Below are positions 49,791 to 56,821 of a stretch of DNA of 64,000 bases, one piece after another. Position 1 is the stretch's first letter, and each line of letters starts with the position of its first letter. The notes beneath the pieces are model-generated. The model was not told the origin of the DNA, made no database searches, and saw nothing but the letters and a program-made list of their open reading frames with translations. Source of the DNA: Pseudocolwellia sp. AS88 (GTDB lineage Bacteria; Pseudomonadota; Gammaproteobacteria; Enterobacterales; Alteromonadaceae); the NCBI RefSeq assembly GCF_030551755.1, contig NZ_JAUPEC010000006.1, positions 1 through 64,000 on the forward strand. Reading direction: 5' to 3'. A program made the position numbers and the translations under genes.

Positions 49791-50636
49791 TTAAGCAACT
49801 TTTACTGAAGTTTTACGGCGTTTAAAGCCAGCTAAAGCTACCATACCAATAGCAAATAAGCCTGCGCTTGCTGGTACTGGAACTTGTACTTGATTAACCG
49901 TAATACGCGCTACTTCGAAACCTTGTGCAGTAAAGTCAGCAGCAGCTTGATCGATTGAATAACCTGCCGGTGTATTACCGCCAAAAATAGATAAACCACC
50001 TGCTAAAACAGTTAAACCAGCATGTTGGCTAATTACACCATTTTCATCTTGTCTTTCTTCTGCATCAGCACCTGCTAAGAAAGGAGCGCCATAACCTCTG
50101 TTTAATTCAGTACCTGAATCCCAAACATCAGAGCCTAATACTAAAATATCTAATCCAACAAATTCATTGTTCATATCAAATAATGAATAGGCTGTTCCGC
50201 TGTCGTTACCTATAAACGCATCATTTGTTGGTATTAGCATTGATAAGAAACTGAAATAGCCACTATCTGTTGCGTTTATTTCAAATATACCTGAAGTTGC
50301 AGATTCGCCCGGTTCGAATACTGGAGCGCCAGCAAAGCCGTCAGGAGCTAATATAGCGCCTTGTTCACCATTAGTATTACTCGCAGTAAAGTCAGCCATA
50401 ACACCAGAAACATCGCCATTTTCAGCTAAAGCTTGTAAAGAAGAAGATGAAGAAGCACCAACATCGAAAGAGTCGAAAGTACCGTCATGAAAACCAACCC
50501 AAACAGGTGTTAAGGCTAAACCACCGGCATTAAATAAGTTACTTACTTCTACTTCAACCATTGCTGCTTGTGATGCACCAGACAACAAAGCGCTTGCTGT
50601 TAAACTGGTTAATAATGCTTTTTTTATTATTTTCAT
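49791..50636 (-). CDS. secreted spondin-domain protein with PEP-CTERM-like sorting signal
   Basis: 281 residues. Signal peptide ends SGASQAA. The spondin-like domain follows (VEVEVSNLFNAGGLALTPVW, then FLSMLIPTNDAFIG and GTELNRGYGAPFL). The C-terminus is tripartite: VPVPAS, a hydrophobic helix AGLFAIGMVALAGF, and a basic cluster KRRKTSVKVA. This is the layout of PEP-CTERM-type signals handled by an exosortase, which is not in the window. It would be exported to the surface or envelope matrix. Paralogous to the genes at 55025 and 55908. A triple 11-bp repeat lies 72 bp upstream of the ATG. Confidence 0.85.
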   Translation of the reverse strand: MKIIKKALLTSLTASALLSGASQAAMVEVEVSNLFNAGGLALTPVWVGFHDGTFDSFDVGASSSSSLQALAENGDVSGVMADFTASNTNGEQGAILAPDGFAGAPVFEPGESATSGIFEINATDSGYFSFLSMLIPTNDAFIGNDSGTAYSLFDMNNEFVGLDILVLGSDVWDSGTELNRGYGAPFLAGADAEERQDENGVISQHAGLTVLAGGLSIFGGNTPAGYSIDQAAADFTAQGFEVARITVNQVQVPVPASAGLFAIGMVALAGFKRRKTSVKVA

Positions 50637-50707
50637 ATTAAATTTTCCCCAAAATATAAATTGTGCTAATTACAATTAATTAGCATTTCATTTACATAAT
50701 AAGAAAC

Positions 50708-50740
50708 AGTTATCACAGAGTTATCACGAAGTCATAACAA
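50708..50740. promoter_or_regulatory. triple 11-bp direct repeat operator upstream of spondin gene
   Basis: Three adjoining 11-mers on the plus strand: AGTTATCACAG (50708-50718), AGTTATCACGA (50719-50729) and AGTCATAACAA (50730-50740). An 11-bp period places sites on one face of the helix, as for OmpR/PhoB-family response regulators; GTCATAA resembles part of a Pho box, though in the opposite orientation to the usual. The first repeat begins 72 bp from the first base of the spondin start codon, exactly as in the copy at 56789-56821. Confidence 0.6.
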
Positions 50741-50868
50741 AAAGCTCAAGATATACCGTGCAAAGAGTTATAATCATGGATTGCGTCTTTTAGATTGTTA
50801 AGTTTTAACTTAATCTTTCATAATTAAGAAAAATTAAGCATTATCTCATTACGTTACTGGAGAATTGT

Positions 50869-51576
50869 GTGACCTTATTGTTTGTTGTTATTTTATCAAC
50901 ATTACTTGCTGGGCTAGGTATGACAGCCGGGGCTGCGATAGCCTGTTTTAAAATGCGTTGGATAAATAATGAGGTACAACATGGCATTGTTGCTTTTGGT
51001 GGTGGCGCTTTATTGTCTGCAGTTGCTTTAGTATTAGTACCAGAAGGTATGAAGCACACTACGCCATTTACAGCTTGTGCCTTTTTTATATTGGGTGGCT
51101 TATGTTTTATGTTTTTGGATATATTTCTTAAAAAACGAAATACGCCAGCCAGTCAACTTGCCGCAATGGTTTCTGACTTTATTCCAGAATCAATAGCTTT
51201 AGGCGCTGCTTTTGCAACAGGTAGTAATGGAGCATTTTTACTTGCGGGCTTAATTGCTTTGCAAAATATCCCTGAAGGCTTTAGTGCGTATCGCGAATTA
51301 AATGAATCACCATCTTTTAATACCAAAAAAATACTTATTATATTTACTCTTTTAGCTTTTTTAGGTCCTGTTGCTGGGGCATCTGGTTATCTTTGGCTTT
51401 CCGGATCTCCTGTGATAATCGCGTGCATTATGTTGTTTGCTTCAGGTGGAATTCTTTACTCAATATTCCAAGATTTAGCTCCTAAAGTTATATTGAAAAA
51501 TCACTTAGCACCACCTATGGGGGCAGTATTAGGCTTTGTATTTGGCATGTTAGGTTTTATGCTGACTGCAGCCTAA
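50869..51576 (+). CDS. ZIP-family metal transporter
   Basis: 235 residues with about eight membrane segments and the two paired ZIP motifs: DFIPESIALGAAF and ALQNIPEGFSAYREL, whose His/Asn, Pro and Glu residues form the metal path (here DFIPES and QNIPEG, without the classic His in either). It probably moves zinc or another divalent cation inward. The start is GTG at 50869, with TGGAGA eight bases upstream. No Zur-like box is seen before it. Divergent from the spondin gene. Confidence 0.85.
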   Translation: MTLLFVVILSTLLAGLGMTAGAAIACFKMRWINNEVQHGIVAFGGGALLSAVALVLVPEGMKHTTPFTACAFFILGGLCFMFLDIFLKKRNTPASQLAAMVSDFIPESIALGAAFATGSNGAFLLAGLIALQNIPEGFSAYRELNESPSFNTKKILIIFTLLAFLGPVAGASGYLWLSGSPVIIACIMLFASGGILYSIFQDLAPKVILKNHLAPPMGAVLGFVFGMLGFMLTAA

Positions 51577-51709
51577 TTATATTTAACCTCAACTCGGGGT
51601 AATGGATTTAATTACTTATTGATTTATTAAAGTATCGATTAACTTTATCTGAATTAAGCACAAAAAAGCCTTAATTCTCTCAATGATGAAATTTATATAG
51701 AGAACAATT

Positions 51710-52123
51710 ATGACATATCCAATCAAAGGGTCTTGCCAATGTGGCAACATCACTTACACATTAAAAGCCAAGCCTAAAAAAGTTATGGCTTGCCATTGCC
51801 AAGAATGTAGAAAGTTATCAACCAGCGCGTTTAGTATTACAACCGTTGTTGAAAGTAAAGATATAGAGTTTAGCGGCACTTTAGATGAGTGGGTTCGTAT
51901 AGCTGATAGCGGTAAGAAAAATCACGCTAAGTTTTGTACAGGTTGTGGTAACAGAGTTTATCACTACAACCCAAATGACTTATCTAGCATCAGATTAAAG
52001 TTACAGCCGGTCAATGTAACAGACGACACTATTTTTCAACCCAGTGTTCATGTGTGGGTAAGTGAGAAGCTAAGTTGGTTTGTTATTCCTGAAGGTATGC
52101 CGAGTTTTCCTGGTCAGCCTTAA
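51710..52123 (+). CDS. GFA/CENP-V family zinc-binding protein
   Basis: 137 residues. Cysteines in the family order: GSCQCGNITYTL, MACHCQECRKLSTSAFS, and KFCTGCGNRVYHY, which form the zinc-binding beta fold of the glutathione-dependent formaldehyde-activating-like family. Its actual reaction is unknown; few members activate formaldehyde. Cytoplasmic, single-gene unit. Confidence 0.9.
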   Translation: MTYPIKGSCQCGNITYTLKAKPKKVMACHCQECRKLSTSAFSITTVVESKDIEFSGTLDEWVRIADSGKKNHAKFCTGCGNRVYHYNPNDLSSIRLKLQPVNVTDDTIFQPSVHVWVSEKLSWFVIPEGMPSFPGQP

Positions 52124-52185
52124 TATAGCTTTGCTGTTTTATTAATGTTTGCGTGAAATAAAGTTACCGTTCCTATAAAAGAGAA

Positions 52186-52212
52186 AGACCACCATAAATA
52201 TGGTGGTCTTTT
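52186..52212 (+). terminator. terminator after GFA gene
   Basis: AGACCACCATA, loop AA, TATGGTGGTCT then TTTT. Confidence 0.85.
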
Positions 52213-52368
52213 GGAATTTACATTATGTGCTAAGTCACAAAGGTTAATTCAGAACAATTAGAGTTAACTGCTTAAGTGTTTCAATTCCTGAAGATCTCGC
52301 CTTAATTTTTTAAAAGCTTGTCATGAGGAATTCGTTATCAGAAATTAACAAACCTTTTACAGCTTAGA

Positions 52369-52485
52369 TTATTTACCTAAAACATTGGTTGTTGTTTTTT
52401 TAGCTGTTTTTGCCGCTTTTTTCTCTTTTGCGGTTAATAATGGTTTCTTTTTAGCACTTTTCTTGTTGTCTTGTCCTTTACTCAT
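52369..52485 (-). CDS. 38-residue lysine-rich protein
   Basis: Minus strand, ATG at 52485 to TAA at 52369. The peptide begins MSKGQDNKKSAKKKPLLTAK and has 15 lysines in 38 residues, with no hydrophobic stretch. AAAGGAAA stands six bases before the ATG. I recall similar MSKGQD... small basic proteins in other gammaproteobacteria, which supports it as real; function unknown, perhaps nucleic-acid or ribosome associated by charge alone. The overlapping plus-strand frame at 52385-52570 is its shadow. Confidence 0.7.
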   Translation of the reverse strand: MSKGQDNKKSAKKKPLLTAKEKKAAKTAKKTTTNVLGK

Positions 52486-52778
52486 GATATTTCCTTTAAA
52501 GGTTAATCTATTGAACCTGAAGACGGCTTTAGCCAACTCAAGGACTAGGGTTACGCAGTGCTTTATATAAACCGAAGATACGTAACAATATCAGTATGGT
52601 CTTATACAAGCGTAATAGATATGACTTTATTGTGATTGATCAAGATATCTTTAAGCAACCAGCAACTGAACCTTGCAAGCCTAAAGTACTAGGTATATAG
52701 GTTGCAGGAAAAAAGGTGTATTTGGCAAAAAGATTTAAAGTGAAGAGAAGTATTTAACATTTACTTAAATAGCTAAAA
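52486..52778. other. intergenic region upstream of the small basic gene
   Basis: About 290 bp. One 34-codon plus-strand frame (52595-52699) begins MVLYKRNRYDFIVIDQ but has no ribosome binding site and no recognised relative, so it is not called. Otherwise it should hold the promoter of the small basic gene. Confidence 0.4.
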
Positions 52779-52820
52779 CATAAGAAGAGTGACTAACGTT
52801 TGTTAGTCACTCTTCTTATG
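52779..52820. terminator. 19-bp perfect hairpin 3' of the LRR-kinase gene
   Basis: CATAAGAAGAGTGACTAAC (52779-52797), loop GTTT, exact complement at 52802-52820. It lies 39 bp past the stop of the minus-strand LRR-kinase gene and would end its transcript. Confidence 0.75.
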
Positions 52821-52859
52821 TTTAAAAGTGAAAATAATAGGGTTAAAAATACAGGTTAA

Positions 52860-54155
52860 CTAACTTATTTTTTTGAGTAATTCTTTATATGCTTCGCTGT
52901 GTTTATCTTGTGCTTGGCAAACACTCAATACGTCATCAATAAAATGCTTTAAAGCACGCGCTTCTATTTTCTGAATTAATAACTGCTGTTCACTTGTTAG
53001 CATGTGGTACATAGTTGCAGCACCAAAGTCGCCAAATATAATATTGGCTTCATCATCAAACAGGGTGTTATGGGCATACAAATCACCATGAGAAACTTGG
53101 TTGCTATGTAAATGTTCAAACACCTCTTGCATCTGCGATACAATTTTACTTATTTGCTGAATACTTAACGTAAAGTCAGCAGGAAAAGTATCTCGAGTGC
53201 AGCTTTTCAAAGAAGGAGGTAAACCTAAGTTATTATATCCTTCAGGAATCAAACTCATAATAAGTGCTAAGTAACCCTGTTCGTTCACTTGTGCTAATGA
53301 TCGAACAATATTCTTGTGATTTCCTGTTTTTAAACACACTTGTAGTTCATCTTTTGGGTAACCATCACTGGTTATTTCACCTTTAAAAACTTTAACTGCA
53401 ATCTCTGCTGGAAACTGTTCTTGGGCTTCTTTCCATACGGCACGTGAAATAACACCTGATGCGCCCCGACCAAGTTCGTTCTGCAAAATATAACTTGATG
53501 ATGCCACTACAGGAACTGAAGCTTGAGGGCTTTGTTTATGAATATCATCTTTATTAATATGTGTTTCAGTAAGTTCAGAATTATTAAGTTCAGAATTACT
53601 AAAAGGGTTACCTGAAAAAGCCAGCCAAGCAAGTTTAGGTAATTGTAATAAGTGAGTAGGGCATCGAGTTAATTGATTAGCTGAAATTCGAACCAACTCA
53701 AGATTTGTTAGTTTTGCCATGGATAACGGTAATTCAGTTAATTGATTACCTGCCAGCATAAGTTTTTGTAATTGACTACATTCACCTAAAGTATCAGGTA
53801 AAACTTCAATACAATTGTCCGTTAATATTAACCAGCGTAAATTTTTCGGTAAGGCACTTTCAGGAACGGTTTTAATTTTATTAGCTTTAAAACCAATCAT
53901 CTCTAAATTTTCACATTGCCCAAGTACTTCAGGCAAAGAGGTAAAAGGATTGTCTGAGGCAAATATAATTTTCAATTTAGTTAATTGTACTAACTCTTTT
54001 GGTAACGAGGTTAATTGATTATTCGATAAATCTAACACCTCTAAGCTGTCTGCCAAGCTTAAAATTTCTAAAGGAAACGAAGTTAGGTTTTCAGAAAGTG
54101 CTAAACGTTTAACGCCCAGTAAGTCACCATTTTTTAATTGAGATAGAGTCTGCAT
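52860..54155 (-). CDS. leucine-rich-repeat / protein kinase fusion
   Basis: 431 residues. Residues about 1-185 are six to seven leucine-rich repeats of the 23-residue SDS22/Shoc2-like type (VLDLSNNQLTSLPKELVQL, then LMLAGNQLTELPLSMAKL). After a polar linker (about 186-220) comes a eukaryotic-like kinase domain: glycine loop ELGRGASGVISRA, lysine in AVKVFKG, catalytic HGDLYAHNTLFD (HGD in place of HRD), and DFGAA. The kinase lobe ends early, at about 210 residues, without a clear APE region. No membrane segment, so cytoplasmic. Single-gene unit; targets unknown. Confidence 0.85.
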   Translation of the reverse strand: MQTLSQLKNGDLLGVKRLALSENLTSFPLEILSLADSLEVLDLSNNQLTSLPKELVQLTKLKIIFASDNPFTSLPEVLGQCENLEMIGFKANKIKTVPESALPKNLRWLILTDNCIEVLPDTLGECSQLQKLMLAGNQLTELPLSMAKLTNLELVRISANQLTRCPTHLLQLPKLAWLAFSGNPFSNSELNNSELTETHINKDDIHKQSPQASVPVVASSSYILQNELGRGASGVISRAVWKEAQEQFPAEIAVKVFKGEITSDGYPKDELQVCLKTGNHKNIVRSLAQVNEQGYLALIMSLIPEGYNNLGLPPSLKSCTRDTFPADFTLSIQQISKIVSQMQEVFEHLHSNQVSHGDLYAHNTLFDDEANIIFGDFGAATMYHMLTSEQQLLIQKIEARALKHFIDDVLSVCQAQDKHSEAYKELLKKIS

Positions 54156-54355
54156 AGAGATTTTGCCGCTTATAGATAATTATCGCGGTGTAGTTTACTT
54201 CAAGCGAAAGTTTAATGCTTAATAATTTCCATTAACTCTTGTTTGGCTTAAATAACTTTTAAAATGGTTTCGGTCAGTTACCACGAATCTTGATATAATC
54301 TTATCAATAGAAAACATCAGCTCAGTAATACCAAAGCGTAAACAGGATATATAAC

Positions 54356-54898
54356 ATGCATTCAGCAATGCAAATGAACAAAGACGATCTCAGAAAAACC
54401 AAACCTAGTAGAGATGAGTACCTCCAAAAGCCCAAACTTCCATTAATTGTTGTATTAGATAATGTAACCAACAGCTATAACATCGGCTCGTTTATTCGAT
54501 TAGCGGATGCTTTTGCCATAGAAAAAATTATTGTTTGTGGCGAACTGACTATCTCGGATAAGAAATTAAGAAAAGCCTCTCGCAACGAAGCGAAATGGGT
54601 AACCGTTGAATACAGCGATAGCACCACTAACAGCTTACAAACCTTATTAGATGATAACTATACGGTATTTAGTGTTGAGCTTTGCCATGAATCTGTTGAT
54701 TACAAAGAAATTAGCTATCCTAAAGCGAGTGTTTTGGTATTAGGTAATGAACGTAAAGGTGTCAGTGAAGCCGCATTAAAATTAAGCCATCATCAAATAC
54801 ACATACCCATGTTTGGCATGGGAAATTCTTTGAATGTTTCAACGGCTGGTGCGATTGTTTTAGCTGAATGTGCCAGCCAAGTGCGCAAGTTAGGTTAA
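54356..54898 (+). CDS. TrmH/SpoU family RNA methyltransferase
   Basis: 180 residues. SPOUT motifs: LPLIVVLDNVTNSYNIGSFI, LVLGNERKGVSEAAL and IHIPMFGMGNSLNVSTAGAI. It would 2'-O-methylate a tRNA or rRNA ribose. It lacks the N-terminal substrate-binding domain of RlmB, so the target is open. GGATAT precedes the first of three near in-frame ATGs. Confidence 0.88.
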   Translation: MHSAMQMNKDDLRKTKPSRDEYLQKPKLPLIVVLDNVTNSYNIGSFIRLADAFAIEKIIVCGELTISDKKLRKASRNEAKWVTVEYSDSTTNSLQTLLDDNYTVFSVELCHESVDYKEISYPKASVLVLGNERKGVSEAALKLSHHQIHIPMFGMGNSLNVSTAGAIVLAECASQVRKLG

Positions 54899-54941
54899 TA
54901 ACCACCTCTCAATAAAAAATTAAGATTAAAAAAACCTATTA

Positions 54942-54978
54942 AAAAGCCTCTAATTACATTGCGTAAAAAGAGGCTTTT
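54942..54978. terminator. hairpin terminator between convergent genes
   Basis: AAAAGCCTCT (54942-54951) pairs with AGAGGCTTTT (54969-54978), loop 17 nt. It serves the methyltransferase and perhaps the convergent spondin lipoprotein gene. Confidence 0.7.
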
Positions 54979-55024
54979 GCTTCGAAGAGTTAACTTATTT
55001 AACTTTACTTCAATTTAGCTTAAT

Positions 55025-55891
55025 TTAGCGTGTACGAGTAATAGTAATCTTTGCTGTTGGGTTGTTCCAACGATGACTTTCATCTAACACTGAAGTACTT
55101 AAACCTTCCAAACTTGCGTCTGTAACATTCGCATTTGAAACAATACCTCTGTGGAAGTGAACACGGTCAAACAAATCATCACGAGCCGCATTAAAACCAG
55201 CTGCAGCTCCACCGCCACCAGCAGCACTTGCCGCAGGACCCGGAACTGTAGAAGCTGACTCAAGGTTTGCTTCTGTACCAGCATCCCATGTAGGTGCCAT
55301 AAATGAAGTCGATTGACCCACAGTCATGCTACTTACGTCCATAGCATTTAAGCCAGTAAAACCATCGTTTGTATTACCTAACATGCTAGCAAAGCTAAGA
55401 CGTAGGTTATCAACATCAAGATCCGGTACTATTAAAGTAGCCGTTGAACTTGTAGAGCGAGGGTTTGTACCGCCACTTGTTGTAGTTGAATCTAAGTAAT
55501 TAGCTGAAGCACTTGCTTCGCTTATTAACATTACTGGATCAGCAGCTTCCGCTAACATTTCAATACCAACACTGGCAACTTCGCCATCGGTAAATGCGTG
55601 GTAGCCTGGTTCATGTAAAATAACAGCCGCAGGACTCATTGGTTGATTGTAAGTTAAGTTAGTAAAATGCACTGTGTAAACTGCTGAGTTACCATTTGTA
55701 CCCGGAGCACCATCTTCACCATCAATACCGTCTATTCCATCGATACCGTCAGCACCATCTGCACCGGCAGGGCCAACAGCACCTGTAGCACCAGTGGCAC
55801 CTACAGCACCGTCATCACCATCGAAGGTACAAGCGGAAGTTATAGTAACTAACATTGCTAGTAAGCTTACTTTGAATAATTGATTTTTCAT
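55025..55891 (-). CDS. lipoprotein with collagen-like repeat and spondin domain
   Basis: 288 residues. Lipobox ITSAC (Cys21), then about 14 Gly-X-Y triplets (GATGATGAVGPAG, GADGIDGIDGIDGEDG) forming a collagen-like stalk to about residue 68, then a spondin-type domain (YTVHFTNLTYNQPMSPAAVI, with DAGTEANLES and FDRVHFHRGIVS). Anchored in an envelope membrane, with the domain held out on the stalk. It starts 16 bp after the 55908 gene and is co-transcribed with it. The HFHRG/HIHRG motif is shared with that neighbour. Confidence 0.85.
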   Translation of the reverse strand: MKNQLFKVSLLAMLVTITSACTFDGDDGAVGATGATGAVGPAGADGADGIDGIDGIDGEDGAPGTNGNSAVYTVHFTNLTYNQPMSPAAVILHEPGYHAFTDGEVASVGIEMLAEAADPVMLISEASASANYLDSTTTSGGTNPRSTSSTATLIVPDLDVDNLRLSFASMLGNTNDGFTGLNAMDVSSMTVGQSTSFMAPTWDAGTEANLESASTVPGPAASAAGGGGAAAGFNAARDDLFDRVHFHRGIVSNANVTDASLEGLSTSVLDESHRWNNPTAKITITRTR

Positions 55892-55907
55892 ATTGAGTTT
55901 CCTTCGA

Positions 55908-56717
55908 TTAAGACGCTGGAACTGTAATAGTTACACGAGCAACAGGGTTTAACCAACGGTGAGCAGTTGAATCTAAATCACTTGCTCCGCCTGTAAGGCT
56001 AGTATCACCTAAAATACCTCTGTGAATATGAACTGGGCCATCTGTACCATCTTCAAGTTCACCATTTTCTATTAGAGCACCAACACCTGTACCACCATCA
56101 CCTAAAGGTACTGGAGACGCGCCAACACCAGCAACACCTGGTAAACCATAGCCGCCTAAAGCATTACCTGTTCCAGCTTCTACAACGTCAGTACGTGTAC
56201 TGTTTATTTCGTCATTTAATTCTGTACCAGCATCATATGCGTGTAATGTGTAAGAATAAGTACCTGGTGTTGTTGGAATTTCTATACTATCTAAGCCAGC
56301 AAAAGCATCGTTCGTAGGAACTAACATAGTTAATAGTGATAAGTAAGGCTTATCCATAGTATCGAATGGGTAACTTAAAGAAGCAGATGGACCTAAAGTG
56401 CCACCAAATCTGTGCCATGTGTTAGCACCGTTATCTGTATCAACAGGACCAAGCTCAGCTTCAAAGTTTTGGCCACTAGAATCTGCATTTTGTGCATCAT
56501 CAATAACACCAGCTTCAGCTAACCATGCAAGTGCAGTAGATGCATCTTGACCTGGTTCAAAAGCATCGTAGGTTGCATCATGAGCAATAACTAAACGTGG
56601 AGTAAATGTTTGAGCGTGCGTTAAGTTTGTTATTTCTACATCTACTACAACTGCATTTGCAGAACCTGATGCTGCCATTGCTAAGATTGCAGCAGAAGCT
56701 AGTTTTGTTAATTTCAT
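55908..56717 (-). CDS. secreted spondin-domain protein
   Basis: 269 residues. Signal peptide ends SGSANA. The spondin domain runs from VVDVEITNLTHAQTFTPRLV, through YLSLLTMLVPTNDAFAG and AYDAGTELNDE, to VHIHRGILGDTS and HRWLNPVARVTITVP. Secreted or periplasmic; it has no C-terminal sorting signal, unlike the 49791 paralogue. First gene of a two-gene unit with the collagen-like lipoprotein. The triple 11-bp repeat lies 72 bp upstream. Confidence 0.85.
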   Translation of the reverse strand: MKLTKLASAAILAMAASGSANAVVVDVEITNLTHAQTFTPRLVIAHDATYDAFEPGQDASTALAWLAEAGVIDDAQNADSSGQNFEAELGPVDTDNGANTWHRFGGTLGPSASLSYPFDTMDKPYLSLLTMLVPTNDAFAGLDSIEIPTTPGTYSYTLHAYDAGTELNDEINSTRTDVVEAGTGNALGGYGLPGVAGVGASPVPLGDGGTGVGALIENGELEDGTDGPVHIHRGILGDTSLTGGASDLDSTAHRWLNPVARVTITVPAS

Positions 56718-56788
56718 ATTGTTTTCCTTTATAATTTGGGGAGTGCTAGTTGTTGAACTGGCTACAATATAAATTTTGCCTTGAAGGA

Positions 56789-56821
56789 ATACCTCACGAA
56801 GTTATCACAATTTCATAACAA
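56789..56821. promoter_or_regulatory. triple 11-bp repeat operator, second copy
   Basis: ATACCTCACGA (56789-56799), AGTTATCACAA (56800-56810), TTTCATAACAA (56811-56821). It matches the 50708-50740 site in order and period, and its distance from the start codon is the same (72 bp). The outer two repeats are more diverged. See the first copy for interpretation. Confidence 0.55.

Follow-up and report, generated by a model that had tools for sequence, protein, structure and literature searches.

The 64,000-nucleotide stretch of Pseudocolwellia sp. AS88 analysed here (contig NZ_JAUPEC010000006.1, positions 1 to 64,000; the window) carries two promoters of spondin-domain genes, 6 kb apart, each marked by three adjoining 11-mers on the + strand: AGTTATCACAG AGTTATCACGA AGTCATAACAA at 50708-50740 and ATACCTCACGA AGTTATCACAA TTTCATAACAA at 56789-56821. 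We consider it very likely that these triple 11-mers are sites of one response regulator of the OmpR family, encoded together with a histidine kinase by an orphaned gene pair on a different contig (C48), and that this pair would activate both window promoters in trans.

The two arrays had been described in a first-pass annotation made from the letters alone, and they are borne out by the sequence, with the third unit of the second array (ATACCTCACGA) degenerate. Read on the strand of the genes, they become TTGTTATGACT TCGTGATAACT CTGTGATAACT (50.7-kb array) and TTGTTATGAAA TTGTGATAACT TCGTGAGGTAT (56.8-kb array), i.e., direct repeats of the unit GTGATAAC with an 11-bp period. The orientation is identical in relatives, and the idea that the repeat is inverted relative to its gene consequently falls. 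A dyad reading, GTTATSAC-N3-GTSATAAC, was also considered and rejected: the symmetry is present in the window copies, but relatives lose the dyad and keep the direct GTGATA-N5-GTGATA.

Alignment of the promoters of related genomes reveals that the arrays are parts of a larger element. Spond_N genes were found in 30 of 60 related genomes, and the element lies 5' of the first spondin gene in 31 of 37 transcription units (the weakest case, G027, is doubtful); G007 becomes the 32nd after correction of its start codon. The motif is thus present upstream of orthologous spondin genes. The units that clearly lack the box belong to G041, G045, and G057, and all three genomes are without the linked regulator described below. 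The aligned element is a 57-bp promoter, TTGTGATAnATTTGTGATAACTTnGTGAnnnnnTnGCGATATTTnCTTTnCATACT, composed of four GTGA-like half-sites (H1-H4) at 11-bp steps followed by a conserved -10. The second half-site (columns 14-17) shows little or no variation from GTGA, and the -35 position, 17 bp before the -10, has no consensus. Self-correlation of the matrix peaks at 0.70 at offset 11 and stays at or below 0.26 at the other offsets from 5 to 19. Each window site corresponds to three of the four half-sites and a predicted -10:

50699..50742, - strand: regulator box of the PEP-CTERM-like spondin promoter, half-sites H2-H4 (relatives' promoter model, E 4.4e-5, model positions 10-53)
50696..50701, - strand: predicted -10 TATTAT, in register with the family -10 (CATACT); best-scoring window position in the 57-bp matrix alignment
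56788..56821, - strand: regulator box of the spondin/collagen-spondin promoter, half-sites H1-H3 (relatives' promoter model, E 8.6e-5, model positions 1-34)
56766..56771, - strand: predicted -10 TATATT, in register with the family -10; second-best window position in the 57-bp matrix alignment

With a position weight matrix built from relatives' promoters only, the two sites rank first and second of all window positions, and the score of the second was reached by none of 200 column-permuted matrices. The window repeats are not a chance occurrence.

Both start codons (ATGs at 50636 and 56717, - strand) lie 72 bp from the beginning of their array, as had been pointed out. The distance itself is correct; as a sign of mechanism it does not hold, since it varies among orthologues and the two promoters keep different half-site triplets. 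In 107 spondin promoters the first half-site stands 82-272 bp (median 93) from the ATG, and 72 bp was dropped as a spacing rule. Relative to their predicted -10 elements, the two window arrays are offset by one repeat (11 bp), and the common 72 bp is therefore most likely a coincidence.

We scanned the 4.3-Mb genome with a promoter model built from the sequences of 19 promoters, all taken from other genomes (its E-values are rough). The best match is the promoter of the regulator/kinase pair on C48 (E 2.9e-7), followed by the two window sites, 50699-50742 (E 4.4e-5) and 56788-56821 (E 8.6e-5). Fourth is C12:34408-34444, located 50 bp before a DUF1223 gene (E 0.002), which is probably a further member of the regulon. 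Two other near-perfect tandem matches in the genome are both inside coding sequence. The motif is thus not common upstream of random genes; its top matches are the regulator promoter and the two spondin promoters. Together with its place before orthologous spondin genes, this supports the proposal that the spondin genes form one regulon.

The regulator and kinase genes on C48 (98298-100477) encode orthologues of the pair in a congener (G001), with 87% identity for the regulator and 76% for the kinase. They stand behind an intact box, with a decayed spondin remnant in between; genes, remnant, and box together span C48:98298-101052. This remnant of the second spondin gene is ridden with stop codons, is recognisable by tblastn (E 7e-10), and shares 92% DNA identity over 65 bp with the congener. 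The congeners G001 and G002 retain a spondin pair at the regulator locus, and the remnant indicates that the original pair is lost at the C48 locus. In G001, the regulator orthologue combines a receiver domain (PF00072, 96 bits) with a Trans_reg_C winged helix (PF00486, 97 bits), and the kinase orthologue carries HisKA (PF00512) and HATPase_c (PF02518); the AS88 kinase gene likewise adjoins that of the regulator. A structure search with the sensor region of the kinase returned weak Cache/PAS matches only (best E 2.4e-3), from which a Cache/PAS-like periplasmic domain is tentatively predicted.

In relatives, the locus reads box, spondin, spondin lipoprotein, OmpR-family response regulator, histidine kinase, with an M48 peptidase gene after the kinase gene in several of them. 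The two spondin genes, regulator, and kinase behind the box are in most relatives apparently one operon. Among 299 genomes of the family, 133 boxes were found at E<=0.003, against about 0.9 expected by chance, and their targets were tallied by reading the DNA downstream of each box. Spondin genes follow 107 of the 133 (one a broken copy). A further five precede the regulator without an intervening spondin: those of AS88, G012 (66 bp upstream of the regulator), and G158, G179, and G198, the last three from one genus (g32). Three boxes are cut by contig ends.

The linked regulator was found in 144 of the 299 genomes. Box and regulator occur together in 107, the box only in 10, the regulator only in 37, and neither in 145 (Fisher p 1.7e-36). 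Five of the ten box-only genomes show a regulator gene beside the spondin genes in fetched DNA, and a sixth (G270) scores a regulator match there. Several observations weigh against the proposed link between box and regulator: (I) the counts are uncorrected for kinship, (II) 37 genomes have the regulator without a box at E<=0.003, (III) G027, G148, and G154 have spondin genes and at least a weak box, with no regulator found in the DNA searched, and (IV) five of the 133 boxes have no sensible downstream gene. Part of the 37 regulator-only genomes must be cases of weak boxes lost by the strict filter; G003, for example, has a box by matrix score.

The spondin genes themselves are the following:

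49791..50636, - strand: spondin-domain protein of 281 aa with signal peptide and PEP-CTERM-like tail (VPVPAS...RRK); Pfam Spond_N 26.4 bits (cut-off 24), NCBIfam NF038123 115 bits
55908..56717, - strand: spondin-domain protein of 269 aa, first gene of a two-gene unit; Pfam Spond_N 28.4 bits, NF038123 187 bits
55025..55891, - strand: predicted lipoprotein of 288 aa with collagen-like repeats and a spondin domain; Pfam Collagen 33.7 bits, Spond_N 31.8 bits

All three window proteins exceed the curated cut-off for Spondin_N (PF06468 / NF038123). The VPLPA-CTERM match of the first is below its cut-off. For the product of 55908..56717, structure prediction (mean pLDDT 64) gives a fold that matches, in a Foldseek search, the F-spondin domain of mindin (3d34; E 3.5e-9). 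The gene at 55025..55891 begins 16 bp past the gene at 55908..56717, and the collagen-like G-x-x repeats of its product sit between the lipoprotein signal and the spondin domain. This pair (56717/55891) is of the type found in an operon with the regulator and kinase in G010, where the second spondin, adjoining the regulator, is also collagen-bearing and similar to the 55025-55891 product. We know of no established function for bacterial spondin-domain proteins.

As to the surroundings, a ZIP-family transporter gene (50869-51576) is divergent from the spondin gene at 50636, and the box between them is oriented towards the latter. We considered a Zur-like site serving the ZIP gene and rejected it on this orientation and because G001 does not retain the ZIP neighbour. 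The spacing of the 50.7-kb box also differs from the Zur consensus. We also note, at 52860-54155, a protein kinase domain fused to leucine-rich repeats, unusual for this neighbourhood.

The first-pass annotation had read the 11-bp period as a hallmark of OmpR/PhoB-family binding and had seen a partial likeness to a Pho box. A regulator of this superfamily is supported, both by the 11-bp direct repeats and by the linked receiver/winged-helix regulator; PhoB itself is not. That the window sites are Pho boxes, with the spondin genes in the PhoB phosphate regulon, is in our view very improbable, although they share the 11-bp direct-repeat layout over the -35 region and their unit, TTGTGATAA, departs from the Pho box, TGTCATAA, chiefly through a C to G change. 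AS88 has PhoB as a distinct gene that clears the curated cut-off (361 bits vs 296 for TIGR02154), and the promoter of this gene carries an ordinary Pho box with TGTCA repeats (TTTGTCATAAAAGTGTCACC). The spondin-linked regulator, scored as its G001 orthologue, remains below the PhoB cut-offs (222.9 vs 296.2 bits for TIGR02154; 159.7 vs 471 for PRK10161), and the two proteins also differ in the C-terminal helix (YEHTVNSHINRLR in the linked regulator vs EDRTVDVHIRRLR in PhoB). At the DNA level, G in the spondin box (TTGTGATAAC) stands in place of C in the Pho box (TGTCATAA), and the site, whose second half-site is GTGA, does not match TGTCAT-N5-TGTCA (Escherichia coli Pho box sites used for comparison: PMC10294691). 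Finally, the presence of the box tracks the spondin-linked regulator across genomes, and the phoB locus is not among the listed own-genome matches of the box model.

A related alternative is that another OmpR-family paralogue (OmpR, BaeR-like, or others) binds the box while the linked regulator controls something else. AS88 encodes at least 12 OmpR-family regulators, and box-like sites stand before an unrelated outer-membrane gene in G035, a genome without the linked regulator. We nevertheless judge this improbable: box presence follows the linked regulator across genomes, and the box is kept before the linked regulator gene even without an intervening spondin in genera g1, g11, and g32. Somewhat less improbable, and different in sign only, is repression by the linked regulator bound to the box, in which case spondin production would go with an inactive kinase. 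Both modes of action occur among OmpR-family regulators, and the box overlaps the -35 region; however, a well-conserved -10 combined with an unconserved -35 position is typical of activator-dependent promoters, which makes repression unlikely. As for chance or a local duplication devoid of regulatory function, the two window promoters do drive paralogous genes 6 kb apart and could share an origin by duplication. Yet the same element precedes spondin genes in dozens of genera of two proteobacterial classes, and the two promoters correspond to different triplets among its half-sites, leaving this explanation with a negligible probability.

We therefore favour activation by the linked regulator, which would pair with a membrane-bound histidine kinase whose predicted periplasmic sensor is Cache/PAS-like. 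Most relatives have the two genes in one apparent operon with two spondin genes, downstream of the box, and the regulator would thereby control its own operon; in AS88, the pair alone on C48 would act in trans on the two window promoters. Once phosphorylated, the regulator would occupy the GTGA half-sites that cover the place of the -35 element and, in the manner of PhoB, recruit RNA polymerase to the -10. From this architecture, binding over the -35 region with activation rather than repression is the most likely mode of action.

Several of the remaining boxes precede oxidant-repair genes. Six of the 133 stand before MsrA or MsrA/MsrB fusions (genera g31 and g64), and exported MsrA/thioredoxin/MsrB fusions are found behind boxes in g31, g64, and G051 (L306, L312, L313, L323, L173, L337, and L175). 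G051 lies outside the family; the kinase is present, no spondin gene was detected, and the box precedes an MsrA-MsrB fusion. In AS88, the promoter-model scan found no box before any Msr gene. We also note a metagenome-assembled genome (MAG; L191) in which the regulator and an MsrA gene are divergent and a box-like sequence lies in the interval that separates them. In g15, two boxes precede the gene of a protein like di-haem cytochrome c peroxidase (a name given on visual inspection of its sequence), and two others precede DUF1223 genes, that of AS88 (C12:34408-34444, L170) and one in g20 (G124:C1:498561, L356); DUF1223 proteins carry a Cys-x2-Cys motif. Three others stand before a small secreted protein (VTSQGLYYD..., about 120 aa; g2 and g16; L172, L335, and L338), which gave no Pfam match in the one member scanned (L172).

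Box-like sites also stand before the same outer-membrane protein gene beside a glycosyltransferase in two genera (L174, G004:C41:74422; L180, G035:C119:7355). Since the linked regulator is missing from G035, a similar site may be recognised there by a different one.

The recurrence of Msr, cytochrome c peroxidase, and DUF1223 targets suggests, as a hypothesis, a response to periplasmic oxidation. That periplasmic oxidative stress is the signal sensed by the kinase is a possibility that we place somewhat below even. Spondins of the family contain about twice as much methionine as neighbouring proteins (3.9% vs 1.9%). The three window spondins are not methionine-rich (1.5, 3.1, and 2.1%), which speaks against a pure methionine-scavenger role for them. 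More tentatively still, spondins could be the chief product of an undescribed envelope stress system of wide distribution, in which a Cache/PAS-type kinase would sense surface oxidative damage or a related signal and the regulator would direct production of methionine-enriched spondins along with periplasmic MsrA/MsrB, cytochrome c peroxidase, and DUF1223 proteins. If so, spondins would be sacrificial or protective surface proteins in oxidant defence.

The site may also extend beyond this group. A contig scan based on the regulator alignment, whose pattern GLE[LM]GADD was too unspecific and matched many regulators, lists a set of loci of which L190-L214 were of use. Among the matches listed, Teredinibacter waterburyi (L190) and Shewanella electrodiphila (L195) have the order spondin, spondin, regulator, kinase with the box before the first gene, as does a Rhodospirillaceae MAG (L193) with a recognisable form of the box. 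In Bacteroidota and other groups (L194, L200, L203, and L208), regulator homologues that lack spondin neighbours carry repeats of the form GTGA-N7-GTGA in the promoters of their own genes, a hint that the site predates the spondin link.

In sum, the box gives bacterial spondins a regulator with its sensor kinase and a set of co-regulated genes. Several of these genes act in the periplasm on peroxide or oxidised methionine, and this makes spondin function directly testable. The DNA model can find the regulon in new genomes, and AS88 illustrates how a regulator can become separated from its targets on the chromosome with the box kept. The regulator superfamily is known; the regulon, the DNA box, and the link to spondins appear to be new. 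Searches of open-licence papers for work tying spondins to two-component systems, or DUF1223 to response regulators, gave no relevant result, which is weak evidence of novelty.

Comparison with known systems places the linked regulator close to PhoB in several respects: a receiver with a winged-helix C-terminal domain, 11-bp direct repeats, no -35 consensus, a -10 shortly downstream, and a box on its own operon. It differs in its half-site (GTGATAA vs TGTCATA), in having four half-sites instead of two, in being a separate gene that fails PhoB models, and in its targets, which are spondins and oxidant-repair genes. The window proteins share the Spond_N family with the FS domains of animal mindin and F-spondin; they differ in being bacterial proteins, secreted or lipid-anchored, that are linked to a two-component system, and in the roughly twofold methionine content of their family relative to neighbouring proteins. 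The nearest described case, by analogy, is the control of MsrPQ, which repairs methionine sulfoxide in the periplasm of E. coli, by the two-component systems HprSR and CusSR (PMC9302797). The linked pair may likewise control periplasmic methionine sulfoxide reductases; however, the candidate targets are MsrA/MsrB-type fusions rather than MsrPQ, the predicted sensor is Cache/PAS-like (a weak fold match), and spondins are the main targets.

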